Shown here: positions 25,673-60,939 of the stretch, one piece after another
How positions within the stretch are numbered: position 1 is the first letter of the stretch
How the letters are laid out: the number at the start of each line of letters is the position of its first letter
DNA from: Isoetes taiwanensis
Taxonomy: Eukaryota > Streptophyta > Lycopodiopsida > Isoetales > Isoetaceae
Direction: 5' to 3'
DNA: 64,000 bases
Assembly (NCBI GenBank): GCA_021234155.1
Contig: JAJEKV010000087.1
Span: forward strand, 1,435,409 to 1,499,408
Notes under the pieces: model-generated
Seen by the model: the letters and a program-made list of their open reading frames with translations, nothing else
Databases searched by the model: none
What the model was told of the DNA's origin: nothing
Program-made: the position numbers and the translations under genes

Positions 25673-25984
25673 AATTCAGCAGGTTACTTACATGGATTTA
25701 ACCTTGGGTTGAAGGCTGAATATGGTTTACTACAGAGACAAAAGAAGTTGTTTTATATCATTCCTTATATTTCCAGGAAAAGAGAATGGTACAGAGGCAG
25801 GATGTTATAGTTTAACACGAACATCAAGTGGCAGTCATAGTTACTTCTGTGGTTGAATTTGCTTCACATGCTGAATTTTTTCCAGACAGCTTTATATCTC
25901 AAAGAGATACTTAGCATTAGTAGTTCTAGTTTCGTTTTCGATTTTGAGTCACGTTAATCATCAGGGGGGATGTTATTGTGTGAC

Positions 25985-28656: not shown

Positions 28657-29110
28657 CACTACAAGGGATAGTCGGCGTCCAAACGCCGCTGACGTCAAAA
28701 ACGGCGCGTCGTCGTCGAATATCGGCGACATCGTTGATTCAACGGCATTAACGTCGCTTCGGCGCCGTTCAACGACGTTTTCTCGGCTGACGGCGTGTCG
28801 GATTGGCTGCGGGCATGGTGCGCCGCCAAGCCGGGTAAAGCGTCGTGTCGTGCCATGTGCACAAAAAACGCCGTTTAACGTCGCCTCGTGGATCGGCGTG
28901 GCACATCCGGTTGCGCGTTTGGCTGGCGACATGCGGCACGCCAACCGTGTTACGCCATCGTCGACGTGGCGTCGTTGAGCGGCGACTAAAAATCTGACGT
29001 GACCGGGGTCGGCCGTGGTTTGCCGACATGCCGGCCGGGGCACGCCAAAGTGTCCTGCCACGTCGACGTGACGTCGTTAAACGACGCCTAGAATATCTGA
29101 CGTGGCGGCG
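28657..29110. repeat. Left subterminal repeat zone of the CACTA element
   Basis: CpG-rich sequence with many CGACG/CGTCG words, including GCGCCGTTCAACGACG (about 28764) and CGTCGTTAAACGACGCC (about 29070), in both orientations. In En/Spm elements such arrays bind the element-encoded TnpA-type protein; that role is inferred here. Confidence 0.75.
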
Positions 29111-29282
29111 GTTTTTTGCCGTGGCACCGGATCTTATTCAAGGCTGCAATCTAAAAACTTGATCTCCCACATGGGTTTTCTAGTTTTAAATCTGATTTCT
29201 TTTGGGCCGGGGGTTTTTTTTTTTTTTGGGAAAAAAAAAAACGTCTTGAAAAAAATTTTTAATGCCGACGCCGCTTATCGTT
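29111..29282. other. Spacer with homopolymer tracts inside the CACTA element
   Basis: Includes a 14-T run (about 29216-29229) followed closely by an A-run and GCCGACGCCGCTTATCG, a last subterminal-like word, before the tandem array begins. Confidence 0.6.
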
Positions 29283-32200
29283 TGGAATGCCAAAATTACC
29301 CTATGGACTAAGTTACACCTGGGGCTTTGCAAAAAACGACACACTTACGCCCTACATTGCAAAGATTATTGACCACCTCCCTAGGCCAATTGAGCACATG
29401 AGATAGTTTGGCTTCTTCAAGAAGGGGTGGGCTTCGGCCACAAAACTTGGTCCCTAGGGCAATGTCGACGCTCGAAAGTCCATTGGCGAGACAGATCACG
29501 GCTATGAGAGGGGAAGTTGCCCGTCCCCGCTGTGGCCTTCGGGAGAGGAATTTTGGGGCAAGTTGCTTCCGGGTGGTTTTAGGGTCCGTGCTCTGGCGCC
29601 AACACCCCCTACCTCAAGACACGCGCCAAGGTCCTAGTCAACCGGACAAGGATAGAGCCTCCAAACGTAAACCCTATGAGTTGCCGGGTTCTAGCAGGGG
29701 GGTTTGCGTTTTTGGGTGCCGAAGTTTTGGTCTTTTGCACTTGGGACGTGGCCAATCACATGCGATTGAGAACGCTGAAGCAAGGGGAACCGACGGAATG
29801 GAGTTTGGACCTGTACTCCTCCGTTGTGGCGGTTAGAAGTCAAGGGCCGCTGGCAAAGAGTAGCAAGACATTCGTAAATTCGTAATTAATGCATAGTACG
29901 GACTTAAATTCTGATTTTTGTCACCTAGCTTCCTAAGTCATCGCCAACATCTGAGCCAACTTTCAAAAATTTTGGATAAGGTTTAGATCAAATAGTTTGC
30001 ACTAGAACAGTCCGGGCAGCTTTGTTGTTGGGCAGCCGAAGCAAGCACACTTGCCCAAGTCAAACAAGGCCAGGACCTTGCAAGGCCTCCTCATTAGAGG
30101 GGAGAGTCCAACCCCGTGAGGCGAGCCCCAAAAGCTTCCCCGAGGCGCCTTTCCCGGCAAAGACTCACGGGGGTACGCTTTAAAGACCACACTTCCGGAT
30201 CTCGGTTCCGATCCGGCCGTTGAATCCTTTGTTCCGGGAACCTGGTCCGAGAAGGTCCAAAAATCCAACATCCGTCCGGGAGAACATATCAAACCGCTAA
30301 GCCCGGCAGGGCGACATGTAGAAACCAAAGTGTTTTGTCGTTCGGACATGCGGAGGTTCGAAATGCCGATCCGACTTCGCCACATCGTCCGGAATGCCAA
30401 AATTACCCTAGGGACCAAGTTACACGGCCGTTTTGCAAAAAAAAGAAACACGCCCTACATTGCGAGATTCGCGTACCACCTCCTAGGCCAATTGATCACG
30501 AAAGTGTGTTGCACATGAGATAGTTTGGCTTTCTTCGAGAAGGGGTGGGCTTCGCCACAAAACTTGGTCCCTAGGGCAATGTCGACGCTCGAGTCCATTG
30601 GCAAAGATAGATCACCTGGTTCGAGAGGGGAAGTTGTCCGTCCGTCGCTGTGGCCTTTGGGAGAGGAATTTTGGGGCAAGCTGCGTCCGGGTGGTTTTAG
30701 GGTCCGTGCTCAAGGCCAACACCCCCCTCTACCTCAAGACACGGCCAAGAAGGTCCTAGTCAAATCGACAAGGATAGAGCCTCCAAACGTAAACCCTATG
30801 AGTTGCCGTGTTCTAGCGTGGTTTGGCGTTTTGGGTGCCGAAGTTTTGGTCTTTTGCACTTGGGACGGGGGTCATCACATGCAGTTGAGAACGCTGGCAA
30901 GCTGAACCGACCGGAATGGAGTTTGGACCTGTATCTCCCCGTTGTGGCGTTAGAAGTCAAGGGCCGCTTTGCAAGAAAGCAAGACATTCGTAAATTCGTA
31001 ATTAATGCATAGTAACGGACTTAAATTCTGATTTTTGTCAGCCTAGCTTCCTAAGTCATCGCCAACATACAGCCAACTTTCAAAAATTTTGGATATGGTT
31101 TTAGATCAAATAGTTTGCACTAGAACGTCCCGGCAGCTTTGTTGTTGGGCGCCGAAGCCGGGCACACTTGCCCAAGTCAAACAAGGCCAGGACGTGCAAG
31201 GCCTCCTCATTAGAGGGGAGAGTCAGAACCCCATGAGGCGAAGCCCCAAAAGCTTCCCCCGAGGCAGCCTTTCTCGGGCGGCCAGCGGGGCGTGACGCTA
31301 AAGACCACACTCCAGGATCTCGGTTCCGTGATTCGACCGTTGAATCCTTTGTTCCAGGAACCTGGTAGAGAAGGTCCAAAAATCCAACATCCGTCCCGAG
31401 AACATATCAAACCGCTAAGCGCCCCAAGGGCGGCGGTGTAGAAACCAAAGTGTTTTGTCGTTCGGACATTGCAGTAGGCTTCGAAATGCCGATCCGACTT
31501 TGCCACATCAGTCAGGAATGCCAAAATTACCCTAGGGACCAAGTTACACGGTTGGTTTTGCAAAAGAAAGAAACACTTACGCCCTACATTGCATTATTAT
31601 TCGCAGCCCACCTCCTAGGCCAATTGACTACGAAAGTGTGTTGCACATGAGATAATGGCCGAGAAGGGGTGGGCTTCTCGCCACAAAACTTGGTCCCTAG
31701 GGCAATGTCGACGCTCTCGAGTCCATTGGCAGACGGATCACGGATTCGAGAGGGGAAGTTGCCCGTCCCGTCGCCGAGTGGCCTTGGGGAGAGGAATTTT
31801 GGGGCAAGCCGCTTCGGGTGGTTTTAGGGTCCGGTGGCTTCGCATCAACACCCCCTCTACCTCAAGACGGCAAGAAGGTCCTAGTCAAATCGACAAGGAT
31901 AGAGCCTCCAAACGTAAACCCTATGAGTTGCCGTGTTCTAGCGGGGTTTTGCGCTTTGGGTGCCGAAGTTTTGGTCTTTGCACTTGGGACGTGGCGATCA
32001 CATGCGATTGAGAACGCTGAAGCAAGGGAACCGACGGAATGGAGTTTGGACCTGTACTCCTCCCAGGCGGTTAGAAGTCAAGGGGCTTTTGTAGTAGCAA
32101 GACATTCGTAGAATTCGTAATTAATGCATAGTGGGACTTAAATTCTGATTTTTTTGTCACTAGCTTCCTAAGTCATCGCCAACATACAGCCAACTTTCAA

Positions 32201-35200
32201 AAAATTTTGGATATGGTTTAGATCAAATAGTTTGCACTAGAACGGTCCGGCAGCCTGTTGTTGGGCACCGAAATGGCACACTTGTCCAAGTCAAACAAGG
32301 CCAGGACCTTGCAAGGCCTCCTCATTAGAGGGGAGAGTCCTAACCCCGTGAGGCGAGCCCCAAAAGCTTCCCCGAGGCCTATTATTTCTCGCAGCGGCCT
32401 CACCGGGGCGACGCTAAAGACCACACTCCCGGATCTCGGTTCCTCGTGATCCGGCCGTTGAATCCTTTGTTCCGGGAACCTGGTCCCAGAAGGTCCAAAA
32501 ATCCAACATCCGGCCTGGAGAACATATCAAACCGCAAGCGCCCCGGCGGCGATGTAGAAACCAAAGTGTTTTGTCGTCGGACATTAAGGAGGTTCAAATG
32601 CCGATCCGACTTCGCCACATCGTCAGGAATGCCAAAATTACCCTAGGGACCAAGTTACACGGTTGGTTTTGCAAAAGAAAGAAACACTTACGCCCTACAT
32701 TGCAAAGATTCGCCAGCCCACCTCCTAGGCCAATTGACTACGAAAGTGTGTTGCACATGAGATAGTTTGGCTTCTTCGAGAAGGGGTGGGCTTCTCGCCA
32801 CAAAACTTGGTCCCTAGGGCAATGTCGATGTTCCGAGTCCATTGGCGAGAGACAGATCACGGTTCCAGAGAGGGGAAGTTGCCCGTCCGCGCTGTGGCCT
32901 TCGAGAGGAATTTTGGGGCAAGCCGCTTCGGGTGGTTTTAGGGTCCGCGGTTCCTCAAGGCCAACACCCCCTCTACCTCAAGACACGGCGCAAGGTCCTA
33001 GTCAACTCGACAAGGATAGAGCCTCCAAACGTAAACCCTATGAGTTGCCGGGTTCTAGCGGGGTTTGGCGCTTTGGGTGCCGAAGTTTTGGTCTTTTGCA
33101 CTTGGGACATGGCGCATCACATGCGATTGAGAACGCGAAGCAAGGGGAACCGACGGAATGGAGTTTGGACCTGTACTCCCCGTTGTGGCGGTTAGAAGTC
33201 AAGGGTCGCTTTTGCGAGCAAGACATTCGTAAATTCGTAATTAATGCATAGTACGGACTTAAATTCTGATTTTTGTCAGCTAGCTTCCTAAGTCATCGCC
33301 AACATCTGAGGCCAACTTTCAAAAAATTTTGGATATGGTTTAGATCAAATAGTTTGCACTAGAACGGTCCCGGCAGACTGTTGTTGGGCAAACCGAAGCC
33401 GCACACTTGCCCAAGTCAAACAAGGCCGGGACCTTGCAAGGCCTCCTCATTAGAGGGGAGAGTCCGACCCCGTGAGGCGAGCCCCAAAAGCTTCCCGAGT
33501 ACCGGTGTCCGGCGGCAAGCCCGCCGGGGCGACGCTAAAGACCACACTCCCAGATCTCGGTTCCCGTGATCCCATCGTTGAATCCTTTGTTCCGTGAACC
33601 CGGTCCGAGAAGGTCCAAAAAATCCAACATCCGTCCGGGGAGAACATATCAAACTGCTGGCGCCCCAGGGGCGAGGCGACGATTGTAGAAACCAAAGTGT
33701 TTTGTCGTTCGGACATTGCAGAGGTCTCGAAATGCCGATCCGACTTTGCCACATCGTCAGGAATGCCAAAATTACCCTAGGGACCAAGTTACACGGTTGG
33801 TTTTGCAAAAGAAAGAAACACTTACGCCCTACATTGCAAGATTCGCCAGCCCACCTCCTAGGCCAATTGACTACGAAAGTGTGTTGCATATGAGATAGTT
33901 TGGCTTTCTTCGAGAAGGGGTGGGCTTCGGCCACAAAACTTGGTCCCTAGGGCAATGTCGACGCTCGAGTCCATTGGCAGAGAGATCACGGTGAGAGGGG
34001 AAGTTGCGTCGTCCGCCGCCGGGCCGGGAGAGGAATTTTGGGGCAAGTCGCTTCGGGTGGTTTTAGGGTCCGTGCTCGCATCAACACCCCCTCTACCTCA
34101 AGACACGGCCAAAGGTCCTAGTCAAATCGACAAGGATAGAGCCCAAACGTAAACCCTATGAGTTGCCGTGTTCTAGCTGTGGTTTTGCGTTTTGGGTGCC
34201 GAAGTTTTGGTCTTTTTGCACTTGGGACGGGCCGCATCACATGCGCTTGAGAACGCTGAAGCAAGGGGAACGACGGAATGGAGTTTGGACTGTACTCCTC
34301 CCGTTGTGGCGCTTAGAAGTCAAGGGCCGCTTTTGTAGTAGCAAGACATTAAGTAAATTCGTAATTAATGCATAGTACGGACTTAAATTCTGATTTTTTG
34401 TCACTAGCTTCCTAAGTCATCGCCAACATACAGCCAACTTTCAAAAATTTTGGATATGGTTTAGATCAAATAGTTTGCACTAGAACGGTCCGGCAGCCTG
34501 TTGGGCAAGGCCGAAAGCGGCACACTTGTCCAAGTCAAACAAGGCCGGGACCTTGCAAGGCCTCCTCATTAGAGGGGAGAGTCCAACCCCGGGAGGCCGA
34601 GCCCCAAAAGCTTCCCCGAGGCAGCCTATTAAGCCTCGCCGGGCGTGACGCTAAAGACCACACTCCCCGGATCCGGTTCCGTGATCCGGCCAGATTGAAT
34701 CCTTTGTTCCGGGAACCTGGTCCGAGAAGGTCCAAAAATCCAACATCCGGAGGAGAACATATCAAACCGCTGAAGCGTCCCCGAGGGCTTACGGTGTAGA
34801 AACCAAAGTGTTTTGTCGTTGGACATTGCGTGAGGTTCGAAATGCCGATCCGACCGCCACATCGTCCAGGAATGCCAAAATTACCCTAGGGACCAAGTTA
34901 CACGGTTGGTTTTGCAAAAGAAAGAAACACTTAAGCCCTACATTGGTAAAAAGATTCGCAGCCCACCTCCTAGGCCAATTGACTACGAAGTGTGTTGCAC
35001 ATGAGATAGTTTTGGCTTCTTCGAGAAGGGTGGGCTTCGCCACAAAACTTGGTCCCTAGGGCAATGTCGATGTTCGAGTCCATTGGCGTAGACAGATCAC
35101 GGTTTCGTGAGAGGGAAGTTGCCCGTCCGTCGCTGTGGCCTTCGAGAGGAATTTTGGGGCAAGCCGCTTCGGGTGGTTTTAGGGTCCGTCTCAAGGCCAA

Positions 35201-38200
35201 CACCCCTCTACCTCAAGACCGGCCAAGGTCCTAGTCAAATCGACAAGGATAGAGCCTCCAAACGTAAAACCCTATGAGTTGCCGTGTTCTAGCGGTGGTT
35301 TGGCGCTTTGGGTGCCGAAGTTTTGGTCTTTTGCACTTGGGACATGGCGATCACATGCGATTGAGAACGCGAAGCAAGGGGAACCGACGGAATGGAGTTT
35401 GGACCTGCACTCTCCCGCCAGGCGCTTAGAAGTCAAGGGCCGCTTTTGCAGAAAGCAAGACATTCGTAAATTGTAATTAATGCATAGTACGGACTTAAAT
35501 TCTGATTTTTGTCAGCTAGCTTCCTAAGTCATCGCCAACATACACAGCCAACTTTCAAAAATTTTGGATATGGTTTAGATCAAATAGTTTGCACTAGAAC
35601 GGTCCGGCAGCCTGTTGTTAAGCCGAGCTGGCACACTTGCCCAAGTCAAACAAGGCCAGGACCTTGCAAGGCCTCCTCATTAGAGGGGAGAGTCCGAACC
35701 CCGTGAGGCGAGCCCCAAAAGCTTCCCCGAGGCAACTGCCTCCGGCAAATAGCCCGGCCGGGGGCGACGCTAAAGACCACACTCCCGATCTCGGTTCCTC
35801 GTGATCCGACCGTTGAATCCTTTGTTCCGTGAACCTGGTCCGAAGGTCCAAAAATCCAACATCCGTCCGGGAGAACATATCAAACCGCTAAGCGCCCCGC
35901 GGGCGACAAAAAGTAGAAACCAAAGTGTTTTGTCGTTCGGACATTACGGAGGTTCGAATGCCGATCCGACTTCGCCACATCGTCCGAATGCCAAAATTAC
36001 CTAGGGACCAAGTTACGGCCGGTTTTGGGTAAAAAGAAAGAAACACTACGCCAGACATTAAAAGATTCGCCAGCCCACCTCCTAGGCCAATTGATCACGA
36101 AAGTGTGTTGCACATGAGATAGTTTTACGCTTCTTCTCGAAGGGGTGGGCTTCGGCCACAAAACTTGGTCCCTAGGGCAATGTCGACGCTCGAGTCCATT
36201 GGCGAGACAGACATCACTTGCCCGAGAGGGAAGTTGCCCGTCCGCCGTGGCCTTCCGGAGAGGAATTTTGGGGCAAGCCGCTTCCGTGTGTTTTTAGGGT
36301 CCGTGCTCGCATCAACACCCCCTACCTCAAGACATCACGCCAAGGTCCTAGTCAAATGACAAGGATAGAGCCTCAAACGTAAACCCTATGAGTTGCCGTG
36401 TTCTAGCGTGGTTTGGCGCTTTGGGTGCCGAAGTTTTGGTCTTTTGCACTTGGGACGTGGCGCATCACATGCGCTTGAGAACGCGAAGCAAGGGGAACCG
36501 ACGGAATGGAGTTTGGACCTGTACTCCTCCCGTTGTGGCGCTTTAGAAGTCAAGGCCGCTTTTGTAGTAGCAAGACATTCAGTAAATTCGTAATTAATGC
36601 ATAGTACGGACTTAAATTTGATTTTTGTCAGCTAGCTTCCTAAGTCATCGCCAACATACATGCCAACTTTCAAAAATTTTGGATATGGTTTAGATCAAAT
36701 AGTTTGCACTAGAACGGTCCGCAGCTGTTGTTGTTGGGCGCCGAAGCTGGCACACTTGTCCAAGTCAAACAAGGCGGGACCTTGCAAGGCCTCCTCATTA
36801 GAGGGGAGAGTCCGAACCCCAGGAGGCGAGCCCCAAAAGCTTCCCCGAGGCAGCCTATATTCGCAGCGCCCACGGGGCGACGCTTAAAGACCACACTCCC
36901 CGGATCTCGGTTCGTGATCCGACCGTTGAATCCTTTGTTCCGTGAACCTGGTCCGAAGGTCCAAAAATCCAACATCCGCCGGGAGAACATATCAAACCGC
37001 TGAAGCCCTGGCGGGCGACAGTGTAGAAACCAAAGTGTTTTGTCGTCGGACATTGCGGAGGTTCGAAATGCCGATCCGACTTTCGCCACATCGTCCGGAA
37101 TGCCAAAATTACCCTAGGGACCAAGTTACACGGTTGGTTTTGGCAAAAGAAAGAAACACTTTACGCCCTACATTAAAGATTCGCCAGCCCACCTCCTAGG
37201 CCAATTGACTACGAAAGTGTGTTGCACATGAGATAGTTTGGCGCTTCTTCGAGAAGGTGGGCTTCTCGCCACAAAACTTGGTCCCTAGGGCAATGTCGAT
37301 GTTCGAGTCCATTGGCAGAGAGATCACGGTTGCGAGAGGGAAGCGCCCGCCCCGCCGCTGTGGCCCGGAGAGGAATTTTGGGGCAAGCCGCTTCCGGGTG
37401 GTTTTTAGGGTCCGTGGCGTCAAGGCCAACACCCCCTCTACCTCAAGACACCGGCAAGCAAGGTCCTAGTCAACTGACAAGGATAGAGCCTTCAAACGTA
37501 AACCCTATGAGTTGCCGTGTTCTAGCGTGGTTTTGCGTTTTTGGGTGCCGAAGTTTTGGTCTTTTGCACTTGGGACATGGCCGATCACATGCGATTGAGA
37601 ACGCGAAGCAAGGGGAACCGACGGAATGGAGTTTGGACTCAGACTCCTCCCGTTGTGGCGCTTAGAAGTCAAGGGCCGCTTTTGCGAGAGCAAGACATTC
37701 AGAATTCGTAATTAATGCATAGTACGGACTTAAATTCTGATTTTTGTCAGCCTAGCTTCCTAAGTCATCGCCAACATACTGAGCCAACTTTCAAAAATTT
37801 TGGATATGGTTTAGATCAAATAGTTTGCACTAGAACGGTCCGGGCAGCCTGTTGTTGGGCACCGAAGCCGCACACTTGCTCAAGTCAAACAAGGCCGGGG
37901 ACCTTGCAAGGCCTCCTCATTAGAGGGGAGAGTCCGAACCCGGTGAGGCGAGCCCCAAAGCTTCCCGAGGCAGCCCTGTCCCGGGCTCCCCGGGGCGACG
38001 CTTAAAGACCACACTCCGGGATCTGGTTCCCGTGATCCGGACCCTTGAATCCTTTGTTCCGTGAACCTGGTCCGAAGGTCCAAAAATCCAACATCCGGCC
38101 CAGGAGAACATATCAAACCGCCGGGCTGCCCCGCTGGGCGACAAGTAGAAACCAAAGTGTTTTGTCGTTCGGACATTACGGAGGTTCAAATGCCGATCCG

Positions 38201-40016
38201 ACTTCGCCACATCGTCCGGAATGCCAAAATTACCCTAGGGACCAAGTTACACCTGGGCCGGTTTTGCAAAAGAAAGAAACACTTACTGCACATTGCAAGA
38301 TTCAGCAGCCCACCTCCTAGGCCAATTGACTACGAGTGTGTTGCACATGAGATAGTTTACGCTTCTTCGAGAAGGGGTGGGCTTCGCCACAAAACTTGGT
38401 CCCTAGGGCAATGTCGACGCTCGAGTCCATTGGCGAGATGTGATCACGGTTCCAGAGAGGGAAGTTGCCCGTCCGCCAGCGTGGCCGGGGAGAGGAATTT
38501 TGGGGCAAGCCGCTTCGGGTGGTTTTAGGGTCCGTGCTCAAGGCCAACACCCCCTCTACCTCAAGACACGGCAAGAAGGTCCTAGTCAAATCGACAAGGA
38601 TAGAGCCTCCAAACGTAAACCCTATGAGTTGCCGTGTTCTAGCGGTGGTTTGGCGTTTTTGGGTGCCGAAGTTTTGGTCTTTTGCACTTGGGACATGGCC
38701 GATCACATGCAGTTGAGAACGCGAAGCAAGGGAACTGACGGAATGGAGTTTGGACTTGTACTCCTCCCGTTGTGGCGCTTAGAAGTCAAGGGCCGCTTTT
38801 GTAAAGAGCAAGACATTCGTAAATTTCGTAATTAATGCATAGTACGGACTTAAATTCTGATTTTTGTCGCCTAGCTTCCTAAGTCATCGCCAACATACAT
38901 GCCAACTTTCAAAAATTTTGGATATGGTTTAGATCAAATAGTTTGCACTAGAACGGTCAAGGCGGCTTTGTTGTTGGGCAGCCGAGCTGGCACACTTGCC
39001 CAAGTCAAACAAGGCGGGACCTTGCAAGGCCTCCTCATTAGAGGGGGAGAGTCCGAACCCCGTGAGGCGAGCCCCAAAAAAGCTTCCCCGAGGCAGCCTT
39101 TCGGCAAAGCCCCACGGGGCGACGCTTAAAGACCACACTCCCGGGATCTCGGTCTCGTGATCCGACCGTTGAATCCTTTGTTCCGTGAACCTGGTCCGAG
39201 AAGGTCCAAAAATCCAACATCCGTCCGGGAGAACATATCAAACCGCGAAGCGCCCCAGCGGGCGACAAAGTAGAAACTAAAGTGTTTTGTCGTTCTGACA
39301 TTGCGGAGGTTCAAATGCCGATCCGACTTCGCCACACGTCCGGAATGCCAAAATTACCCTAGGGACCAAGTTACACCTGGCTTTTTGCAAAAATAAAGAA
39401 ACACTTACGCCCTACATTGCAAAAGATTCGCCAGCCCACCTCCTAGGCCAATTGATTCACGAAAGTGCGTTGCACATTAGTTTTGGCGCTTCGAGAAGGG
39501 GTGGGCTTCGCCACAAAACTTGGTCCCTAGGGCAATGTTGACGCTTTGAGTCCATTGGCGAGACGTGATCACGGTTCCGGAGAGGGGAAGTTGCCCGTCC
39601 GCCGCCCGGGCCTTCGGGGAGAGGACTTTTGGGGCAAGCCGCCTCGGGTGGTTTTAGGGTCCGTGCTCAAGGCCAACACCCCCTCTACGCCAAGACACGG
39701 CGCCAAGGTCCTAGTCAAATCGACAAGCATAGAGCCTCCCAAACGTAAACCCTATGAGTTGCCGGTTCTAGCGGGTTTTGCGTTTTGGGTGCCGAAGTTT
39801 TGGTCTTTTGCACTTGGGGCGTGGCCAATCACATGCGAATTGAGAATGCGAAGCAAGCGGAACCGACGGAATGGAGTTTGGACCACTCCTCCCCGCTGTG
39901 GCGCTTAGAAGTCAAGGCCCGCTTTTGCAAAGAGCAAGACATTCGTAAATTAAAAGTAATTAATGCATAGTAACGGACTTAAATTTGATTTTTGTCGGCC
40001 TAGCTTCCTAAGTCAG
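29283..40016. repeat. Tandem array of a 1.12-kb unit, about 9.6 copies
   Basis: The anchor TAATTAATGCAT recurs at 29883, 30999, 32118, 33238, 34362, 35474, 36591, 37709, 38829 and 39957, giving spacings of 1112-1128 bp. Other invariant words are CCAAAATTACCCTAGGGACC, CTTGGTCCCTAGGGCAATGT, GAATTTTGGGGCAAG, AACGTAAACCCTATGAG, GATCAAATAGTTTGCAC and CATTAGAGGGG. The first copy is partial at its left, the last ends at CTTCCTAAGTCA. All copies have the same orientation. No reading frame survives in all copies because of frequent 1-4 base indels, so the unit is most likely non-coding. I recognise no known repeat family in it. Confidence 0.95.
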
Positions 40017-40430
40017 CTAGCTTGTTGAGATAAACTACATCTTCGCATGTTGGTAGGGTATTAGTTCTCATAGCGGGGACAAAATTAAAAAATAAATATA
40101 TATATAAATGTCGTCAGAATGTTTAACACGTAGCTACATATACTATTGGTGGAAACCTAACCTTTTAAATCTAACAAAATAAAATTTTAAGATAAACTAC
40201 ATCTTTGCATGTTGGTAAGGTATTAGTTATCGAAAGGTGTAAGGTATTACTAGTTATCATCATCGTATTATATACCTCATAGCTCAACGGATGTACCACA
40301 AAACATTGAACATTTTCATGGTGGTATATTTCATAACTTTAACGGGTGTAGCAAGTCAAATAAACCCCTATCCAGTTAAATAAACCCATGTATCAAGTGT
40401 ACATGCATTCAAAAAAAAAAAAAAAAAAAA
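40017..40430. repeat. AT-rich linker with a 40-bp repeat and poly-A
   Basis: GATAAACTACATCTTCGCAT / GATAAACTACATCTTTGCAT followed by GTTGGTA(G/A)GGTATTAGTT occurs at about 40030 and 40192. A 20-A tract (40411-40430) precedes the first copy of the 2.8-kb duplication. Confidence 0.8.
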
Positions 40431-43280
40431 CCTTAAACCTGTTCAAACAGACTTTCTACCTTTCCAAGACCTTTTGCAAAGACCTTTTTAAGGTACAATT
40501 AGCAGCCCTAAGTTTAAAACAGGTGTATTTCAACTTAGGCCATAACATGGTTACAGTTTCAACAATAAACACATACATCTCAATTAGAATATTCAAACTT
40601 AAAGGCCGACCTTAATGCCAAAGAAACTTGTTTTTCCAAAATTGTCACATTACAAGAGAAGAGTTCCTGATATTCTAGACAGCAATCAGAATACTTATAT
40701 CCATTAAACTTACAGCAATATCCAGCAGGCCATATGGATTAAGAATGTAATGCCCTTCAAGAATTCAAAACATTAGATCTCCAAAAATCCAATAGTACAA
40801 AGATATCTCAGCGAAAAACTTCCTTTATCATGTCTTGTAAGCTTATCCAAATTTGAAATAATTTGAACGAACATACACAGGAGCAAGAAATCCCGTTACC
40901 TGCAGTGAAACCAGAGGACAGTTAGCCTAAGAAGGGTAAGAGCCTAAGTCACTAGCAGGTAAGCTACGGATCTCTTGGGCTCATCGCCCTTCACCTTGCA
41001 TGTTTGTAAAACAAATGCAGGTAGGTCCAATCATGTAACTAGCATCAGCAAGAGCATACTGTGTTTATAGCCATTATTACCATTTAGGCATAAAGCAATA
41101 GAGGAAAAGGGAAAAGGACCTCAAAATGATCAAGTTCCAAACCTGCTCAGTAATTAGAATTTCCATAAAGCCAATGTGTAGTAGTACCGTTAACCATTTC
41201 ACATCCAGCCCTAGTTCTAGAATTCTAAGTATTTTCTGCAATTAGCCCCAAGCATTTACACTATGGCACTGTTAAAGCTATCTCAACATGAAGTTAATGT
41301 CTGCAAGACTCTAAATCACTATAAACCTGTTTTATTAATACCAACAAACAAACTGATATACATCAGAGTGATATTTTAATAAAACGCACAATGGTTCCTG
41401 GAGCAAAGATAACATCAATAATCATTTTAATTTAAACAAACTGCAGCCATCATAAAAGTGCAGCAAGCTACAGCAACATGCAGCAAGCCCCAAGGCAACA
41501 GGGAAAATATGTGCATGCATGCCTTCTTAAAAATTGAAGCTACACGGTTTCAGCTAGTCAGCCAGTATTAATGTAAATGGCCAGGAATATTAGATCCATA
41601 CATAACTTAGAGCAGGATAAAGATATCAGAACTGAAAATGCCCTAAGATCTAAGTTAAGATAATAACTGAAACGTCATGGGTGGATGTAAAGCACCACAT
41701 CTGCTAATAGTCCTGATTAAGGATATCCAACTCTGTGTCAAATTATATATCCTATCATAAACTAGAGAGTTAAATACTATATTATCCGCTCTGTTGCTTA
41801 CACTAGGCTAGCATATCTTATGTACAATAGCTCAGCCAGATAGAAATGGAAATTTCACTATAATTTAAAGTTAGCATACTGCAATCTCAGATCACCTTAA
41901 ACAAATGCAAATCCCAGTTCTAGAACCAAGCTATATCCTACACAAGTGTAATATCCCATAATATGCAGCCATTTTCAAGCGAATATGCTGTAACATAGAA
42001 TTGATTATGCATCCAACCTGAATTGTAGATGTCGGATTATCTTTAGTTTGAGCAGCTGGTGGAATGCAGACACCTGATGGGTACGAATTTAAGTGCTAGT
42101 GCCATGTGCAAATGCCATTGTAGCCGTGGTAGAGGGCGCTTCCGGGGTGCCTTCCATAGATTTTGAATTTTTTCCATCTCCTTGTTCCTTGTCGGCTCTT
42201 GCAAATTCTCAGCGATTCTAGTGAGCCCATAAGGAGTTCCTTTGCAATTTTTTACAGAGAACATAATATGCAAGGCTGCCAAGCGCATGCTACATTCAGA
42301 TTACCTTTCTTTCATGATATGCTAAGCCATGTTTCTGAGCGGCAAATCCTCAACAATCCTGCTATATATGGCAATTTTTTCCGGGCCGATTTACTAAAGC
42401 CCTTGATACCGTCTGTCCTACAGTCATCAAATACGCCTGCATGCCTGGAGGCCAGCTCCGATTCAAGAATGTACATGTCCAACTACTTTTTCCGGTATCA
42501 TGCCTTGTGCTTACTTCTGTTGCCGTTTATTCGCAACCCTAAAATGCAGAGATGTATAATTTAACAATAAGCAATAAGCATTTGTATAATTCCAGTTTCA
42601 CCTTATAGAATACATGATTTTAACTTGTTTTGGAAGTTCCATGGTCCACATATATCTTGTTCCACTTCACGTACTTACCATGCTCTAAGGCCACAACACT
42701 TAGATCTGCCCATATAACTTAGATCTGCCCATATAACGTCCATCAGCCATATGTAGACTAGAAAATCCTCTAGTTTATCAATTTTCTTTTTTACATGCCT
42801 TTGCAATAACATGCATCCTAGAAAGTCAAAACAAGTTCCAATGTCTAGATAATTCAACTCGGAGAGATTTTACCTTTTACTTGTGAGCCCAATTCGCCCG
42901 AGAAGAGAAGGAAAAGGCACTTATCCCATACATATTTAAGCAAAGCTTAAAACTCAAGTCAGGTTCACATTCCAAGGTTCACATTCCAACGTGGGAAAGG
43001 GTTATATGAGTCATACCATAAACAGATTATCAGTTACAGTCCCACATGATAAACAGAAGCACATCATAGACTAAACCCATCTTATCATTATATCTGGTGA
43101 TTTAACCATAATAACCATAACACCAATAAATTCAAGGTTATGGACAATATTCTAAAAAAGCTCCATATTTGTAACTCACAACTGCATTACACTGGTTCCC
43201 CATGTTCTTGGGAACTTTGAAAACTAAACTTTATATTGCCTCATGTTACGCATAAAAATCTCGATCATTATAATAAAAAA
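40431..43280. repeat. 2.85-kb direct duplication, copy 1
   Basis: Starts CCTTAAACCTGTTCAAACAG and ends CTCGATCATTATAATAAAAA, matching copy 2 (44234-47040) almost throughout. Copy 1 has an extra ~35 bp near 40565-40600. Contained frames (42043-42564) are fragmentary: on the minus strand ESELASRHAGVFDDCRTDG and MAFAHGTSTQIRTHQ-like pieces recur in both copies but shift frame. Exons of an unknown gene are possible. No domain is recognised. A small internal repeat of TTAGATCTGCCCATATAAC lies near 42710-42735. Confidence 0.9.
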
Positions 43281-44233
43281 AGCCTGCCTCCTACCGTAGG
43301 TCAGGGTGGGCCAAAATTCATAAATAGATTTAGCAACAAGGAGAGGAGGACCTTGTTGCCAAAGCCCTACCCTACCTATATTGCCTAATTGTACAAGTAT
43401 TTATTATTCTTTAACGTGCCAATGGCAAGCAAGTGGACCAATAAAGAGAGCAAGCTACATGTTAAGAGTACTAGTATGTACGAATGCCTGCCTACCCTAT
43501 ATATGTTCCAGAAATATAATGTATGCACATTACATTTTGAAAACTTGATCAAAAACTTCTTTATTGTATAGAATGCAAAGAAGCATCTGAGTGAGTATAG
43601 ATATAAGGAAAAATCTCGAAAAGGATTACCTTCAAAGCTCGCCCAGTATGGTCTGCAATAGCCCAATGGCAATTCATATTCATAAGCCCAATGGCAATTT
43701 ATTTCATATGAAAGTCTTCTTGAAAAATTATGTCCAATCTCATCATGTACCAAAAGGTCTTGGTGAGGTTGTTGACCCACAACTATTCATATGAAATATG
43801 CTTCTCAATAAGTCATCGATAATCCAGCACAGTCTTAATAGAGAAGTCAGGTTCCATAATGTCATTAACATTTAGAACAGTCAAGGGTTGCATAATGTCA
43901 TTAACATTTAGAACAATCAAGTTGCACGTACCATACTGCAACTAGAACAGGAGTCTCAAGCTACAAGTGCTGAGGTGCATTTCCTTATTCTTGATATATG
44001 CCAAGACAGTTTGAACTCCAGAGCTCGGACTGTCCTATCTGCAATACTATATGAGTTGTACAGGTTCACTTATCGATTACTTGCATTAGAATAATCCTTT
44101 CCAGCATCCGTCATTCTCCTAATAATCAATATAGTCATCAGTACTTATGAATATTTTAAACAACCACCTGAAAATTGAGTAACCATGACTATGGTCTCTA
44201 GTATAACTAGAGAACTGAGTATTGATAAAAAAA
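43281..44233. other. Spacer between the two 2.8-kb copies
   Basis: AT-rich sequence with a 33-bp internal repeat (ATAATGTCATTAACATTTAG at about 43857 and 43893). The 131-codon frame 43385-43780 has no recognised motif. No gene is supported. Confidence 0.5.
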
Positions 44234-47034
44234 CCTTAAACCTGTTCAAACAGACTTTCTACCTTTCCAAGACCTTTTGCAAAGACCTTTTTAAGGTACA
44301 ATTAGCAGCCCTAAGTTTAAAACAGGTGTATTTTAACTTAGGCCATAACATGGTTACAGTTTCAAACTCAAAAGCCGACCTTAATGCCAAAGAAACTTGT
44401 TTTTCCAAAATTGTCACATTACAAGAGAAGAGTTCCTGATATTCTAGACGTTGAATCGAATACTTATATCCATTAAACTTACAGCAATATCCAGCAGGCC
44501 ATATGGATTAAGAATGTAATGCCCTTCAAGAATTCAAAACATTAGATCTCCAAAAAATCCAATAGTACAAAGATATCTCAGCGAAAAACTTCCTTTATCA
44601 TGTCTTGTAAGCTTATCCAAATTTGAAATAATTTGAACTTAACATACACAAGGAGCAAGAAATCCTGTTACCGCAGCGGGAAACCAGAGGACGCTTAGCC
44701 TAAGAAGGGTAAGAGCCTAAGTCACTAGCAGGTGTAAGCTACGGATCTCTTTGGGCTCATCGCCTTCACCTTGCATGTTTGTAAAACAAATGCAGGTAGG
44801 TCCAATCATGTAACTAGCATCAGCAAGAGCATACTGTGTTTATAGCCATTATTACCATTTAGGCATAAAGCAATAGAGGAAAAGGGAAAAGGACCTCAAA
44901 ATGATCAAGTTCCAAACCTGCTCAGTAATTAGAATTTCCATAAAGCCAATGTGTAGTAGTACCGTTAACCATTTCACATCCAGCCCTAGTTCTAGAATTC
45001 TAAGTATTTCCTGCAATTAGCCCCAAGCATTTACACTATGGCACTGTTAAAGCTATCTCAACGTGAAGTTAATGTCTGCAAGACTCTAAATCACTATAAA
45101 CCTGTTTTATTAATACCAACAAACAAACTGATATATATCAGAGTGATATTTTAATAAAACGCACAATGGTTCCTGGTGCAAAGATAACATCAATAATCAT
45201 TTTAATTTAAACAAACTGCAGCCATCATAAAAAGTGCAGCAAGCTAAAGCAACATGCAGCAAGCCCCAAGGCAACAGGGAAAAGATGTGCATGCATGCCT
45301 TCTTAAAAATTGAAGCTACACGGTTTCAAATTAGTCACCAAGATAATGTAAATGGCCGTGAATATTAGATCCATACATAACTTAGAGCGGGGATAAAGAT
45401 ATCGAACTGAAAATGCCCTAAGATCTAAGTTAAGATAATAATCAAAACGTCATGGGTGGATGTAAAGCACCACATCTCGCTAATAGTCCCGATTAAGGAT
45501 ATCCAACTCGTGGTCAAATTATATATCCTATCATAAACTAGAGAGTTAAATACTATATTATCCGGGCCATTTGCTTACACTAGGCTAGCATATCTTATGT
45601 ACAATAGCTCACGATAGAAATGGAAATTTCACTATAATTTAAAGTTAGCATCTTGCAATCTCGCATCACCTTAAACAAATGCAAATCCCGGTTCTAGAAC
45701 CAAGCTATATCCTACACAAGTGTAATATCCCATAATATGCAGCCATTTTCGCTTAATATCTTTAACATAGAATTGATTATGCATCCAACCTGAATTGTAG
45801 ATGTCGGATTATCTTTAGTTTGAGCAGTTGGTGGAATCGCACACCTGATGGGTACGAATTTGAGTGCTAGTGCCATGTGCAAATGCCATTGTAGCCGTGG
45901 TAGAGGGCGCCCGGTGCCTTCCATAGATTTTGAATTTTTCCATCTCCTTGTTCCTTTGTCGGCTCTTGCAAATTCTCAACGATTCTAGTGAGCCCATAAG
46001 GAGTTCCTTTGCAATTTTTACGAGAGAACATAATATGCAAGGCTGCTGCCGCATGCTACATTCAGATTACCTTTCTTTCATGATATGCTAAGCCATGTTT
46101 CTGGGCGGCAAATCCTCAACAATCCTGCTATATATGGCAATTTTTTCCGGGCCGATTTACTAAAGCCCTTGATACCGTCTGTCCTACAATCATCAAATAC
46201 GCCTGCATGCCTGGAGGCCAGCTCCGATTCAAGAATTTACATGTCCAACTACTTTTTCCGGTATCATGCCTTGTGCTTACTTCTGTCGCGTTTATGCGCA
46301 ACCCTAAAATGCAGAGATGTATAATTTAACAATAAGCAATAAGCATTTGTATAATTCCAGTTTCACCTTATAGAATACATGATTTTAACTTGTTTTGGAA
46401 GTTCCATGGTCCACATATATCTTGTTCCACTTCACGTACTTACCATGCTCTAAGGCCACAACACTTAGATCTGCCCATATAACTTAGATCTGCCCATATA
46501 ACATCCATCAGCCATATGTAGACTAGAAAATCCTCTAGTTTATCAATTTTCTTTTTTACATGCCTTTGCAATAACATGCATCCTAGAAAGTCAAAACAAG
46601 TTCCAATGTCTAGATAATTCAACTTCGAGAGATTTTACCTTTACTTGTGAGCCCAATTCTGGCCTGAGAAGAGAAGGAAAAGGCACTTATCCCATACATA
46701 TTTAAGCAAAGCTTAAAACTCAAGTCAGGTTCACATTCCAAGGTTCACATTCCAACGTGGGAAAGGGTTATATGAGTCATACCATAAACAGATTATCAGT
46801 TACAGTCCCACATGATAAACAGAAGCACATCATAGACTAAACCCATCTTATCATTATATCTGGTGATTTAACCATAATAACCATAACACCAATAAATTCA
46901 AGGTTATGGACAATATTCTAAAAGCTCCATATTTGTAACTCACAACTGCATTACACTGGTTCCCCATGTTCTTGGGAGCTTTGAAAACTAAACTTTATAT
47001 TGCCTCATGTTACGATAAAAATCTCGATCATTAT

Positions 47035-47040
<6 letters not shown>
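44234..47040. repeat. 2.85-kb direct duplication, copy 2
   Basis: Colinear with 40431-43280 at high identity. Differences are concentrated at CAG/CTG/CCG triplets (for example GACAGTTAG at about 40917 against GACGCTTAG at about 44691). It ends directly at a 41-A tract rather than at the spacer sequence that follows copy 1. Confidence 0.9.

Positions 47041-47079
<39 letters not shown>
47039..47079 (+). repeat. 41-base poly-A tract
   Basis: Uninterrupted A run at the junction between the second 2.8-kb copy and an internal copy of the CACTA subterminal motif. Confidence 0.95.
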
Positions 47080-47081
<2 letters not shown>

Positions 47082-47084
47082 AAA

Positions 47085-47165
47085 AAGCATAAACGCCGCT
47101 CAACGACGCTTTTTGTCGCCGCTTAACGACGCCACGACGCCGCTTAACGACACTGCGGATTTTAA
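47085..47165 (+). repeat. Internal cluster of CACTA subterminal-type repeats
   Basis: Three consecutive copies, ACGCCGCTCAACGACGC, TCGCCGCTTAACGACGCC and ACGCCGCTTAACGACACT, match the motif found at both ends of the element, 18.4 kb from the left end and 4.4 kb from the right end. This suggests that one element end was captured or that two related elements fused. Confidence 0.8.
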
Positions 47166-48300
47166 ATCGAAAACAATGGCAATCCCCGCTTATTTTCGAG
47201 CAAGCAAAGCTTATGGAGGAGCATTTTTTGAGGCGACAAGCGCGGATCTACTTTGGGGTCTATTCTAAGTGTAAGACAAGCTTCATAAGGTATGTTTTGG
47301 ATCAACCAACCTTCGCTTTTTGAATCTAAACTTGTTTTTGGGTAGATTTAGGGCTTTTTGTATTTGTTGTTTGTTCTTCCTTCAACCTTCATTCTTCTTC
47401 TTCCATTCTTGCATCCTTCTTCCATACATATTCTTCCATTCCCTTTGTCATCTTCTTCTTCGATTCTTCCTCCTCTTATACTACTTCTTCCTCCTCTTAT
47501 TCAAATTCTTACTCTTAATCCCTCCTCTTGCGCTTCATCTTCTTCAGTATTCTTCCTCCCATTTTCGGGTTCCTCCTCTTCTTCTTAGCCTTTTCTTCTT
47601 CGGAATTCTTCCATTCTTTCTTCTAATTTTTTTCCCATCTAAGAAGACGCGTTAAAAGGCAGACCCTTCTTCTTTCCAAAATTTTTCCTTATTAGTTGTT
47701 TTATACTATTTCTTTTTCTAATCATTGAATTTTTTTTGTTTTGCATGTACACTCCTAGCAAAATGTGTTGTTCTTGCAAAACAAGTTGGCACCTCTTCCG
47801 TGTAAGGATTTAATTTTTTCAATACGCTTAATAAAATACTAATGCTTTATTTAGGTTAAATTGTTATCCAAGAAGGGACGCCATTGAAACCACCCTCCCC
47901 ATTGATTTTCCATATTTTTGTTTCCTTTAAGTTGTTTATTTATACTAATATTTTACTAATCATTGAATTTATTGTTTTGCATGTACACTCCTAGCAAATG
48001 CGCTGTTTGTGCAAAAACAACTTTACACCTTGTAAATGTGTAAGCATTTAATTTTCAATATGCTTAATGTATTGATTAATGTATTTAGCTTAATTTATTG
48101 ATTAATGTATTTAGCTAAAAAATTGGGGCTTCATTTATTTTTGTATTTTTTAATATATTTGGTTTACATCATTTAATGACGTTAAAATCTTATATTTCTT
48201 TTTATTGGTTAAATTCATTTTATAGGCTTTAAATTAAATGTATTAACTTCATTCATAATAAATGTGTTATTATTATTTTTTTCAATTTATAAAACCCCAA
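47166..48300. other. Pyrimidine-rich stretch, no gene
   Basis: 47380-47640 is strongly C/T-rich (TTCTTC and CCTCCTC words), which makes long but low-complexity leucine/serine/phenylalanine frames. 47740-48140 repeats TTTTGCATGTACACTCCTAG with AAAAT(G)TG and ATTAATGTATTTAGCT words. Nothing coding is supported. Confidence 0.5.
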
Positions 48301-48660
48301 ATCAGTTATGTGACTACCATACTTGATATTTCCGGATCGAAATACCAAGTTCCGCCTTTGGCGACCCTAGAAAAATTGCCGTGAAACAATTTCCTAGGCG
48401 GTGATAGGGACCGGACTTAATTACTTTGTAACAATAGTACATCGATTCCAAAGAAACTTTTATTTCGAAAATAATACACTCGCATTATTTCAAATGCATA
48501 AAACATATTATACATGAATAATATAAGATAAAAATATCAGAATAATACCTTATGACAAACAATCAAAGTAATTAATACACTGTATGTTCTCCCAATGGAA
48601 ATATCTTACTTGAAATCAAGTTTAATGAACCATCTGCTTAGAACGCGATATAAACATCAA
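48301..48660. other. LTR-leader-like sequence of unknown origin
   Basis: The order TTTCCGGATCGAAATACC, GGCGACCCTAG, AAAAATTGCCGTGAAACAAT and GGCGGTGATAGGGACCGG resembles the start of some plant gypsy LTRs, but no TG terminus, PBS or coding region accompanies it. Confidence 0.25.
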
Positions 48661-48795
48661 AGCATGGAGCAAGAAACCCCGGGTTACCCGCAGAGAACCT
48701 AAAGGACGCTTAGCCTTAATCGTGGTAAAAGCCTAAGCTACTAATGTGTAAAGCAAGAGGTTTCTTGGGTATTCCCCTTCACCATGACTTTAATG
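48661..48795 (-). other. Third, diverged copy of a block shared with the 2.8-kb repeats
   Basis: GGAGCAAGAAA, the word GTTACC, GGACGCTTAGCC, GTAA(A)AGCCTAAG and CCTTCACCATG match 44655-44780 and 40881-41005 in order, although the surrounding DNA does not align. Conservation of this 125-bp island beyond its surroundings suggests an exon or a regulatory element. On the minus strand a CTGCAG|GTAAC junction occurs in copy 1. Confidence 0.5.
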
Positions 48796-49599
48796 GTATT
48801 GGTCTCACTATGTAGTCATCGAGAATACCTCAGATTTGCATGACTAATGTGCAAAAGACAATAGCAAACAAATATAATTACCTGTGACTCTTGAATATGG
48901 GTGACATCATGTGTTCATAAATGTTTATTAGATACTCACGTGAGAGTCCTCCCTTACCTTGGAGTCCTCTCTAAAATCTTCTGCTCACAAACACCCTTAA
49001 ACAATAAGCTAGCCACTGTGATAATATATTTTAAAGCAAGACCCTACCACTGTGCACATGAATCAGCGAACACTTCTTCATTATGTACAGCCACGTTTTT
49101 TATTGGATCAGTCCCATTCTTATTTTCCATCCAAACCTAGTCAATCTATAGTATTATAACCCCAAATAATGGCAATCAGCTTGTGCCAACATACATTTCA
49201 ATCAAATCACTATTATTTCCATCTTGCATACATAGTGAGCCATTAAGATTAATAGATCTGTCCGGGTACCTCATTGAATAGTGCATATACTCATCACCAC
49301 AACTAAATAATGACAGTATTATATGCTTAGTTTCTGCCCAACTATTCCTTCTAAAAGTCTTACTAGAAATCTGCATATCATGCATACATTAATAATATCA
49401 TGAACATGGTATATAATAGTCTTATTCTGTGTGAAATAGATTTAATAATGTTTCAAATCAATCAGCAAATCCAGCTAAATAATAAGGAAGAACATTCATC
49501 CATTAGATTAGTCATTCAACTACTTGTTATTAATTTCACTTTGAACATGTTCTTAATAGCATATGTGAGATTACATGGTTAGCATTAAACTTTGAATAG

Positions 49600-49970
49600 C
49601 TTTAGCTCCGTGAGGGAAATCCCGTGGTGTCGCTTTGTGCCTTGTTGCTAATTTCTCGTCCTTGGAGTTGGCATCTTGTTGGCTAAGGATTCGTTACCAG
49701 CTTTGCTCTTGGGGACGGCTTCAACTACCTCACCTATCTTCTTGATCCCTTCACCATCTTTTGCATTGATACACTCATTCAAATTGGCTTTGTTGGGCAC
49801 ATCTATAGCTCCCCCTTGCTTTGTTGCGGGTTAGCAGCCCTACTTAAATAAATCAGATCTTTTTCCTCTTGGGAGCTAGGGACTGGCATCCATCTCAAGC
49901 TTTCTTCGGTAGACATGTTAAGATCCCCTTTCTTCCCCCCATGCTCAAGGGCAAGATATCTGTGGTTCAT
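49600..49970 (-). pseudogene. Short broken ORF inside the CACTA element
   Basis: From ATG 49970 the minus strand reads MNHRYLALEHGGKKGDL, then STEESLRWMPVPSSQEEKDL and YLSRAANPQQ. After a one-base shift near 49820 it continues IDVPNKANLNECINAKDGEG, KKIGEVVEAVPKSKAGNES to about 49640. Composition is protein-like and hydrophilic. I do not recognise the family. It is the best candidate for a coding exon in the right part of the element, and could be a TnpA-like accessory protein piece, but that is only a guess from position. Confidence 0.35.
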
Positions 49971-50644
49971 TTGAGGAAGACGGACTCAAAGAATGCATTC
50001 ATCAATCTCGCTATTATATAGACCTGATCACGGCCCTTAGTAATGGTAACCGCGACACTAGTCGCGGTCCTTGTTCAAATCCGATTATCTCTCAGATATC
50101 AACAAATGCAAATACCGCCTATATTTTCTCGAAATTGGTCTTGGCCAGGAAGTGTCCTTTGTTCTCCATCCATTACGATGTCGGGCAAATTGAACCCTAA
50201 AAATATGAGAATCGTAGATTATCATTTTTACATGTTAGGGTGAGATTCGACTAGGACTTTAAAATGTTTAATTTTAATTAATTGCCCAATATAATTTTGC
50301 CATGTCAAAAAGTCGTTGTTGTGATTTATTCCACTTGAGTGGAAGTTAATTAAAATACTTATGTGGCGCTACATGAGTTTTTAAAGGATGTACCTTAATA
50401 TTACCGGCCCTAAAAAATAATATATGTGTCCCTTTGCTCAAATATTGCCACGCGGATCTCTATTTTGTTTTTTTGTTCTATTTTTCTTTCTTGATCCTTT
50501 AATGTGTCCTACGTGGATTTTTTATGTTTCATATGTGGAATCACCCCGTAGAAATTGCTACTTAAATTAAGGAACTTTAATGCCACGTCATTAAAGAACG
50601 TTCACCGTAATGGAATCTCACCCTTAATATAAGACATACATTTT

Positions 50645-51078
50645 TCAGTAAGTACTTCTTTAAGTGTTAGCTAAGGTTAACTTGCTCCAACACGTCACAT
50701 ATTTTAACTTAGGTATTAGGCTATGCCATACTTATTGTAGAACTAGTCTCCATTCCCTAGAGTAAACCATTTACTTCCTATTTCAGTATATTGTAACACT
50801 TACTGCATCATATTTGTGTATATATTATTTTCATGCCAGAGCACATTTCTTCAGGTGAGTATGTCTTTAAAGACAGTACTAGCAAAGGTCTGTTGTGCCA
50901 CCATTGTCGCTTGTTTTAACCTTGGCATTATGCTCTCCTTTGTGCTATACATATTGTGAAACAGGTCCCCATTGCACAGTGTAAACCTTGTCCACCTATG
51001 CTCAATATGCTGTACCCTTTACTGCAATATGCATGTGTATAGACTTATGTATCATCCGCTAACATGTCAAAGCACATT
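50645..51078. repeat. Diverged tandem duplication, about 210-bp units
   Basis: TCAG(G)T(G)AGTA followed by GTCTTTAA/CTTCTTTAA, TATTAGGCTATGCCATAC / GCATTATGCTCTCC, CTCCATT/CCCCATT, AGTAAACC/GTGTAAACC, TTACTGCA, GTGTATA, CATG(C/T)CA and AGCACATT recur at 50645-50848 and 50852-51078. The block lies just inside the right subterminal zone. Confidence 0.6.
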
Positions 51079-51114
51079 ATCCGGGCCATCTTAATAAAAA
51101 AAAAATTTATTTAA

Positions 51115-51519
51115 GTTAGCAACGCCGTTAAACGACGTTGTTTAAGTGGTCGCCATCGGCCAAGAACGGCGCCGGGTAACGCCGCTTGCCACCCGCCACG
51201 CATGTTACGGTATCGCGACGCCGTTTAAACGACCGCCAAACACGCGGGCTGCCACGCCGCACCCGCCGGCCGACGCCATGTCGGGTCGTACCGCTGGCGC
51301 AGCCACGCGGTAACGCGGGCGCCGCTGAACGACGCCGTCGCCGCTTTAAGACGCCCGCGTTGGTTGCGACGCATATAGCGCACGCGATAAAGGTCGCTTT
51401 ATCGACGCCCGACGCCGAATAGATCGTCGTTTATCGACGCTTTGACGTCGATCATCGACGCCTAAACGACGCCTGGACGCCGAATAAGACGCCGTGAATG
51501 CGGCTTTAATTTTGTAGTG
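51115..51519. repeat. Right subterminal repeat zone of the CACTA element
   Basis: CpG-rich sequence with CGCCGTTAAACGACG (about 51123), CGCCGCTGAACGACGCC (about 51323), ATCGACG words and CGCCTAAACGACGCC (about 51457), ending in TTGTAGTG. It mirrors the left zone. Confidence 0.75.
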
Positions 51520-60782: not shown

Positions 60783-60939
60783 ATACTTACCTGGGCGGGG
60801 TTTATCGGTGATCAGAAAGGCCGATGGCCTAAGATGGTTTGCGCCATTGCACCAGGGCGTGGATTGTCTTAGCATCTCCTCAAGGGGAGAGTGCACGTCA
60901 TAATTTGTGGTAGTGGGGGCTCGCGTTCGCGCGGCCCCC
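60783..60939 (+). ncRNA. U1: U1 spliceosomal snRNA
   Basis: A 157-nt match to plant U1. It begins ATACTTACCTG (60783-60793), which pairs with 5' splice sites. Stem-loop I carries GATCAGAAAGG, one transposed base from the usual U1-70K loop. Stem-loop II has ATTGCAC (60846-60852), the U1A-binding loop. The Sm site AATTTGTGG lies at 60902-60910, and the final GC stem GGGGGCTCGCG...GCGGCCCCC closes it. Upstream USE and TATA elements and a downstream 3'-box-like CAACCAGTATT (about 60954) support a real, transcribable gene rather than a bare pseudogene. U1 defines the intron 5' end in the nucleus. It is transcribed independently of its neighbours. Confidence 0.93.

Follow-up and report, generated by a model that had tools for sequence, protein, structure and literature searches.

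What would move a DNA transposon in which no transposase gene can be found, and how could it have grown to 22,863 bp? The question is raised by a stretch of 64,000 nucleotides from Isoetes taiwanensis (assembly GCA_021234155.1, contig JAJEKV010000087.1, forward-strand positions 1,435,409 to 1,499,408), which as a whole we call the window, and whose positions are counted from its first letter. An initial annotation of the window proposed a CACTA element at 28657-51519, and this is borne out by both of its ends, by the ATT that abuts each of them, and by matches of the joined flanks to sites without the element. It very probably belongs to a non-autonomous CACTA (En/Spm-type) family moved by Tnp2-coding elements that share its ends, with a tandem array and two inserts giving it its length. 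The parts of the element are listed here (LINE, long interspersed nuclear element; ORF, open reading frame; RT, reverse transcriptase; C and L numbers are our handles for contigs and loci).

28654-28656, unstranded: left target-site duplication ATT, from end reading and uninterrupted LINE matches.
28657-29276, plus strand: left terminal region, with the end CACTACAAGGGATAGTCG and CpG-rich subterminal repeats (CGACG, CGCCG); this end is common to the Tnp2-coding C222 and C941.
29277-40015, plus strand: tandem array of nine full ~1.12-kb units and a final one truncated at position ~677 of the unit; G+C content ~52%; no protein family in eight ORFs.
40016-40430, plus strand: conserved spacer with a terminal A-tract, from comparison with relatives.
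40424-47044, minus strand: probable nested retroelement derivative in the A-tract, with direct repeats around a 945-bp inner part, from comparisons of repeats, relatives and RT elements.
47055-48294, plus strand: conserved core segment, present in 10 of 10 members studied, C1045 having only 922 bp of it, from comparison with relatives.
48294-51093, unstranded: second insert, ~2.8 kb, within an A/T-tract, from comparison with relatives.
51093-51519, plus strand: right terminal region, with CpG-rich subterminal repeats and the end TTTTGTAGTG; this end is common to the Tnp2-family C952 and C913 (L044, L045).
51520-51522, unstranded: right target-site duplication ATT, from end reading.

The element starts at 28657 with CACTACAAGGG (left end CACTACAAGGGATAGTCG) and finishes at 51519 with TTTTGTAGTG (right end TTTAATTTTGTAGTG), so that the inverted tips of CACTA elements, CACTACAA, are present at both ends, and the 3-bp target-site duplication ATT/ATT surrounds them. 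The CpG-rich repeats represent the reiterated subterminal motif of this class: CGACG is found 15 times in the left 620 bp and 13 times in the right 427 bp, CGCCG 13 times in each, and neither of them occurs in one 620-bp flank. The left terminal region also folds better than 20 shuffled versions of itself (z=-4.2). Outside the element, the two flanks look like parts of one minus-strand LINE.

27388-28656, minus strand: zf-RVT part of the interrupted LINE, left flank (PF13966, E=3e-12).
51627-52778, minus strand: endonuclease part of the interrupted LINE, right flank (PF03372, E=2.5e-4, 21.3 bits, below the cut-off of 24.5).

When the two flanks were joined with a single ATT and used as a genome query, 21 of the 40 scored matches crossed the joint at 78-88% identity, whereas the remaining 19 comprised 17 partial matches and the two flanks of the window itself. 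As an empty-site test this is clean, and it shows that this copy landed in a LINE. The LINE itself, at ~28593-28596, is without ~0.93 kb present in its paralogues, where matches split at query positions 87-90 (e.g., C1039:6060659 to 6061590).

The ends are frequent in the genome (assembled as 1.66 Gb in 1110 contigs), with 314 occurrences of the exact left 18-mer and 101 of the exact right 18-mer, against 0 for the reversed-pattern control of each, and their presence is therefore not due to chance. Queries with the outer 300 bp gave 467 candidates for the left end and 417 for the right, of which the best 40 each were scored. These best 40 + 40 matches, 100 of the 314 exact left and 100 of the 101 exact right occurrences supplied 126 left and 104 right ends for pairing within 60 kb, and 33 pairs were correctly arranged, as opposed to one (opposite strands) and one (wrong side) in the controls. 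The 33 pairs correspond to 32 distinct copies, as one left end is used twice (a 46-kb pair re-uses it). The further copies with both ends that the initial annotation had asked after thus exist, and perfect 3-bp duplications surround 7 of the 7 whole relatives (5.6-16.3 kb), which were chosen since both their ends matched. All this supports the members being a non-autonomous CACTA family of many copies, and it is a new family, of an already known kind. What does not hold is the supposed exceptional length of the window copy. In the partial sample of end-paired copies (n=32), which span 3.5 to 29.1 kb, it is 27th by size with five longer ones, and lengths of 16-20.5 kb have been published for other CACTA elements (PMC2613891, PMC6431247).

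The family core follows one order: left end (620 bp), array, spacer with its A-tract, conserved 1.2-kb segment, right end. In 8 of the 8 whole copies the array lies just inside the left end and breaks off at position 676-677 of its last unit, whilst its size differs, with 9.6 units in the window copy and about 2.6-6.6 in seven relatives. Units are 89.4% identical within elements (n=78) and 89.3% between elements (n=517), hence there is no local homogenisation, and their CpG positions mismatch at 13.8% as against 5.9% at other positions. The AT-rich core is 96.6% identical among nine relatives and 94.2% between these and the window copy. Since the units are equally different within and between elements while the core is so alike, the diversity of the units may predate the spread of the copies, or GC-rich DNA may change faster, or both. 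The window copy appears to sit in a divergent branch of the family, since its left and right 300 bp have a mean identity of 79.1% and 76.5% to other members, which among themselves are 85.4% and 87.1% alike. Elsewhere the unit returned 5318 first-look candidates, with eight scored, on eight contigs; the five whose surroundings were compared (C1048, C985, C930, C1063, C1037) adjoin a right end or core of the family, and the other three lie at C1095, C557 and C1084. The unit was also considered as a gene and rejected, the frames of its consensus reaching 151 aa at most; eight array ORFs had no Pfam match at E<=0.1, and window positions 32000-34500, inside the array, no Rfam match at E<=0.5. In the relative at C1048 (L022-L024), identical copies of 275-415 bp of a segment like window 40131-40404 lie at several places in one element, pointing to a recent duplication around a nested insertion.

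Beyond the array, length comes from two inserts. In five of seven relatives position 40430 is joined straight to 47055 via the A-tract, and the window has 6.6 kb between them, comprising direct repeats at 40424-43281 and 44227-47044 (95.1% identical by BLAST, 95.9% by global alignment, Kimura two-parameter distance 0.043). The second insert is absent at its site in nine of nine relatives, and DNA like it occurs at C1054 (two places) and C952. Could the first insert be a duplication of the CACTA element's own interior, rather than a nested retroelement? Its copies are arranged head to tail and very alike, C1025 and C919 hold about 3.3-3.7 kb of partly similar DNA at the same site, and its similarity to RT-coding elements is short, all of which would suit a duplication. 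However, it sits in an A-tract and is missing from the five relatives just mentioned; 70 bp of its inner part have a counterpart in that of an RT-coding element in C1078 (78.6%, E=3e-7); the inner part ends in GGTAGGAGGCAGG ahead of the repeat, as it does in the RT-coding copy at C1034; and stretches of 130-146 bp at the repeat ends are 75-77% identical to repeats in C1078, C1025 and C919. The window repeat is found elsewhere as pairs 3.4-3.8 kb apart (e.g., C1089, C1093, C941, C46), which fit a recurring unit but would fit a tandem repeat too. On balance a duplication of interior DNA is unlikely, and 40424-47044, with its flanking direct repeats, probably derives from an abundant RT-coding retroelement nested in the element's own A-tract. 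Given how short the similarity of the window repeats to RT-coding elements is, this assignment is likely, not proven; among the RT-coding copies found, none has direct repeats matching 40424-43281 over most of their length. The tandem and segmental duplications claimed for the element have therefore fared differently: the tandem ones stand as the array, whereas the large one is better seen as the direct repeats of a nested retroelement than as CACTA DNA.

Does the element code for a transposase? Pfam was run on 12 of the 38 stop-to-stop ORFs of at least 60 aa in 40016-51519 and on the eight array ORFs, and the sole match at E<=0.1 in these 20 was to DUF4609 (E=0.077, below its cut-off). With Tnp2 proteins and the ORFs of at least 60 aa from four Tnp2-family loci as queries, tblastn gave no coding match in the element, the one frame matched (minus strand, E=1e-5) running over the right subterminal repeats. 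To judge from tblastn and Pfam the element thus appears to carry no transposase gene, as had been proposed, and the transposase exons between 40 and 51 kb that would have contradicted this were not found among the 12 scanned ORFs there or by tblastn. One could imagine that an autonomous CACTA element had decayed here, its transposase being replaced or broken by the nested insertions in this particular copy. Insertions are indeed present, and short weak matches between the core segment and Tnp2-family loci (69-78% over 68-160 bp) hint at shared descent. Yet the first insert is absent from five of the seven whole relatives and the second from all nine examined, no Tnp2 match at E<0.01 is seen in seven whole and two partly fetched relatives, and the array directly follows the left end in every whole copy. 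A 5.6-kb relative at C790, with neither insert and no Tnp2 match, mostly refutes such decay, which we regard as very unlikely.

If the enzyme is not coded inside the element, elements with the same ends are where it would be sought. The listed ends were crossed with 38 Tnp2 places chosen by eye on contigs that carry such ends. Among these places, C222 and C941 have the exact left end with Tnp2-like DNA ~4 kb inside it in the same orientation, C908 has it with Tnp2-like DNA 13.9 kb inside, and C952, C913 and C1055 have the exact right end 18-27 kb beyond Tnp2 (24 kb in C952, 27 kb in C913). The likeness extends past the tips, as the left 160 bp of C222 and C941 are 64-90% alike to those of eight whole members (shuffled control, one pair: mean 43%, maximum 57%) and the right 200 bp of C952 and C913 are 62-87% alike to those of members. 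The Tnp2-bearing DNA is 93-95% alike among C222, C941, C952 and C913 (91-92% upstream of Tnp2), and the carriers of the left end and those of the right end are therefore one lineage; in the fetched stretches of these four, the DNA common with the window's family is mainly terminal. The absence of a left end at C952 is explained by a direct junction: its Tnp2 part is fused to DNA that resembles (91%) the right-hand 3.7 kb of L044 minus the last ~90 bp, and the point of fusion corresponds to ~1.06 kb inward from the left end of C222. In a CACTA relative, a SET-domain-like ORF (L043:4298-5305; PF00856, E=1.2e-6, above the cut-off), perhaps a captured gene piece, immediately precedes Tnp2.

Several observations weigh against these loci being the source of the enzyme. 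No single assembled copy has both ends and Tnp2, the left and right links coming from different loci; at C952 and C913 the fetched DNA leaves a gap of ~18-21 kb on the way from Tnp2 to the right end, and the ends listed include no exact left end for either of them at up to 60 kb from Tnp2. Several stops interrupt the Tnp2 frames at C222 and C941:3729684 (stop-free frames of 423-508 aa occur at their close relatives C263, C1082, C909 and C941:14430896). Some neighbourhoods may be due to chance, since the Tnp2 at C908:23269794 is found 6.5 kb outside a left end, on its wrong side, and at C1055 a Tnp2 is on the opposite strand. In none of ten other sampled Tnp2 loci do the 5.5 kb of upstream DNA contain this left end. 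CGACG is not specific either, as 17 copies occur in 600 bp of a Tnp2 element with a different end, and the ends of the window copy are the most divergent of eight, being 74.5/64.1% (left) and 75.1/61.6% (right) identical to those of the Tnp2 loci. Even so, the end-sharing Tnp2 lineage is the likely source of the enzyme.

The family's dependence on a Tnp2 supplied in trans, put forward in the initial annotation, is thus made plausible by the end-sharing loci, whilst the particular gene to which it pointed, 18 kb to the left in the window, belongs to what appears to be a distant lineage.

7963-10128, minus strand: Tnp2-like ORF of 721 aa (PF02992, E=8.9e-5, below the cut-off).

That this gene or a close relative supplies the enzyme is extremely improbable, for although it has a Transposase_21-like match (22.2 bits), tblastn does not match it to the end-sharing lineage at E<1e-3, and it is 29% identical to two other Tnp2 proteins, and has no CACTACAAGG near it in the window. 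Under the explanation by end-sharing elements, and by analogy with En/Spm, in which TNPD and TNPA are both required (PMC2613891), a Tnp2-type transposase and a partner binding the subterminal repeats would act on the CACTACAA tips and the CpG-rich repeats, and the element would be cut and pasted in trans. Insertion duplicates 3 bp, as seen around the copies. The family core holds an inherited array, whose number of units differs between copies and would change by unequal exchange, and the 22.9 kb would be the sum of a long array and two insertions into the element's own A/T-tracts.

The RT-coding elements to which the first insert seems related have direct repeats of 2.5-3.9 kb in copies C1034, C1048 and C1078, 97.7-99.2% alike, and two of these lie inside CACTA relatives.

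L023:1223-5066: RT-class element inside the CACTA relative C1048.
L026:4529-8543: RT-class element inside the CACTA relative C1078.
L028, L030, L031: further copies.

The RT query returned 4696 first-look genome candidates, and the 62 scored matched. The copies in C1048 and C1078 code for an ORF of 515-528 aa (ORF1, no Pfam match) and an RT-only ORF of 685-720 aa, with RVT_1 at E=2e-4 and 4.7e-4, both below the cut-off. Surroundings are (TA)n at C1034 and C1048, and an A-run on one side only at C1078. No GIY-YIG match was obtained in four ORFs of the class, no Rfam match at gathering score that would point to a hammerhead ribozyme in seven loci, no Rfam match at E<=0.5 in window positions 40000-51519, nothing meaningful against solved structures, and no NCBIfam match over cut-off. 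The RT and ORF1 of the two 29-kb relatives, which are 42% and 33% alike, were also considered as CACTA genes, and rejected given their opposite orientations and their own flanking direct repeats; three other RT copies (16, 10 and 9 kb) match neither the CACTA core of C1048 and C1078 nor their right end once array matches are filtered. It is tempting to speculate, although we hold this tentatively and would not bet on it, that the nested DNA derives, in non-autonomous form, from a very abundant and undescribed class of plant retroelements with 2.5-3.9 kb direct repeats, an ORF1 of ~520 aa and an RT-only ORF of ~700 aa, no integrase or endonuclease having been found, which land in A/T-tracts and (TA)n, so that the A-tracts of the CACTA element would serve as landing pads on a growing carrier. 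This class may be the more interesting part, and merits a separate study.

Taken together, the family clearly illustrates how a DNA transposon lacking a transposase of its own reaches 20-30 kb: it inherits a long-period satellite array, and other mobile DNA strikes its A-tracts. Shared ends point to a candidate lineage for the transposase, and a ~1.1-kb satellite may, in turn, be carried around the genome by the family. Three other features lie in the window outside the element.

22582-23428: short tandem duplications of ~98 and ~400 bp.
25984-26964, plus strand: RVT_1-bearing ORF of another LINE, opposite to the interrupted one.
60783-60941, plus strand: U1 spliceosomal RNA gene or pseudogene (131 bits).

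How do these elements compare with known systems? Penelope-like elements have a Penelope-type RT with a GIY-YIG endonuclease, and a hammerhead ribozyme in their long repeats. The nested class resembles them in its weak RVT_1 match, its long direct repeats and its ORFs with no other Pfam domain found, and differs in that neither GIY-YIG nor hammerhead was detected in the ORFs and loci searched, and in its location in A/T runs or (TA)n. The CACTA element, for its part, resembles non-autonomous CACTA/En-Spm elements of the dSpm type in its tips, 3-bp duplication and subterminal motif, in that no transposase was found in it, and in having end-sharing Tnp2 relatives; its interior, however, does not simply represent the sampled Tnp2 elements with a deletion, and consists of the array of ~1.12-kb units and the 1.2-kb core. 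An internal satellite array is likewise held by the CACTA Jozin elements of Chenopodium (PMC8978399; one of 16.5 kb), in which 171-bp monomers lie near the 3′ end of transposase-coding elements, whereas here the units are far longer and lie just inside the left end, in eight of eight whole copies with no transposase match. Soybean Tgmt*, a putative autonomous CACTA element of 20.5 kb, is similar in length, in its CACTA ends and 3-bp duplication and in its asymmetric subterminal repeats, but codes for Tnp2 and a putative DNA-binding protein, neither of which was found in the window element (PMC2613891). Finally, the enlarged En/Spm families of Chondrus crispus, of 16-20 kb with 4-5 ORFs (PMC6431247), are alike in size, but the window element would owe its length to its array and inserts instead of ORFs.

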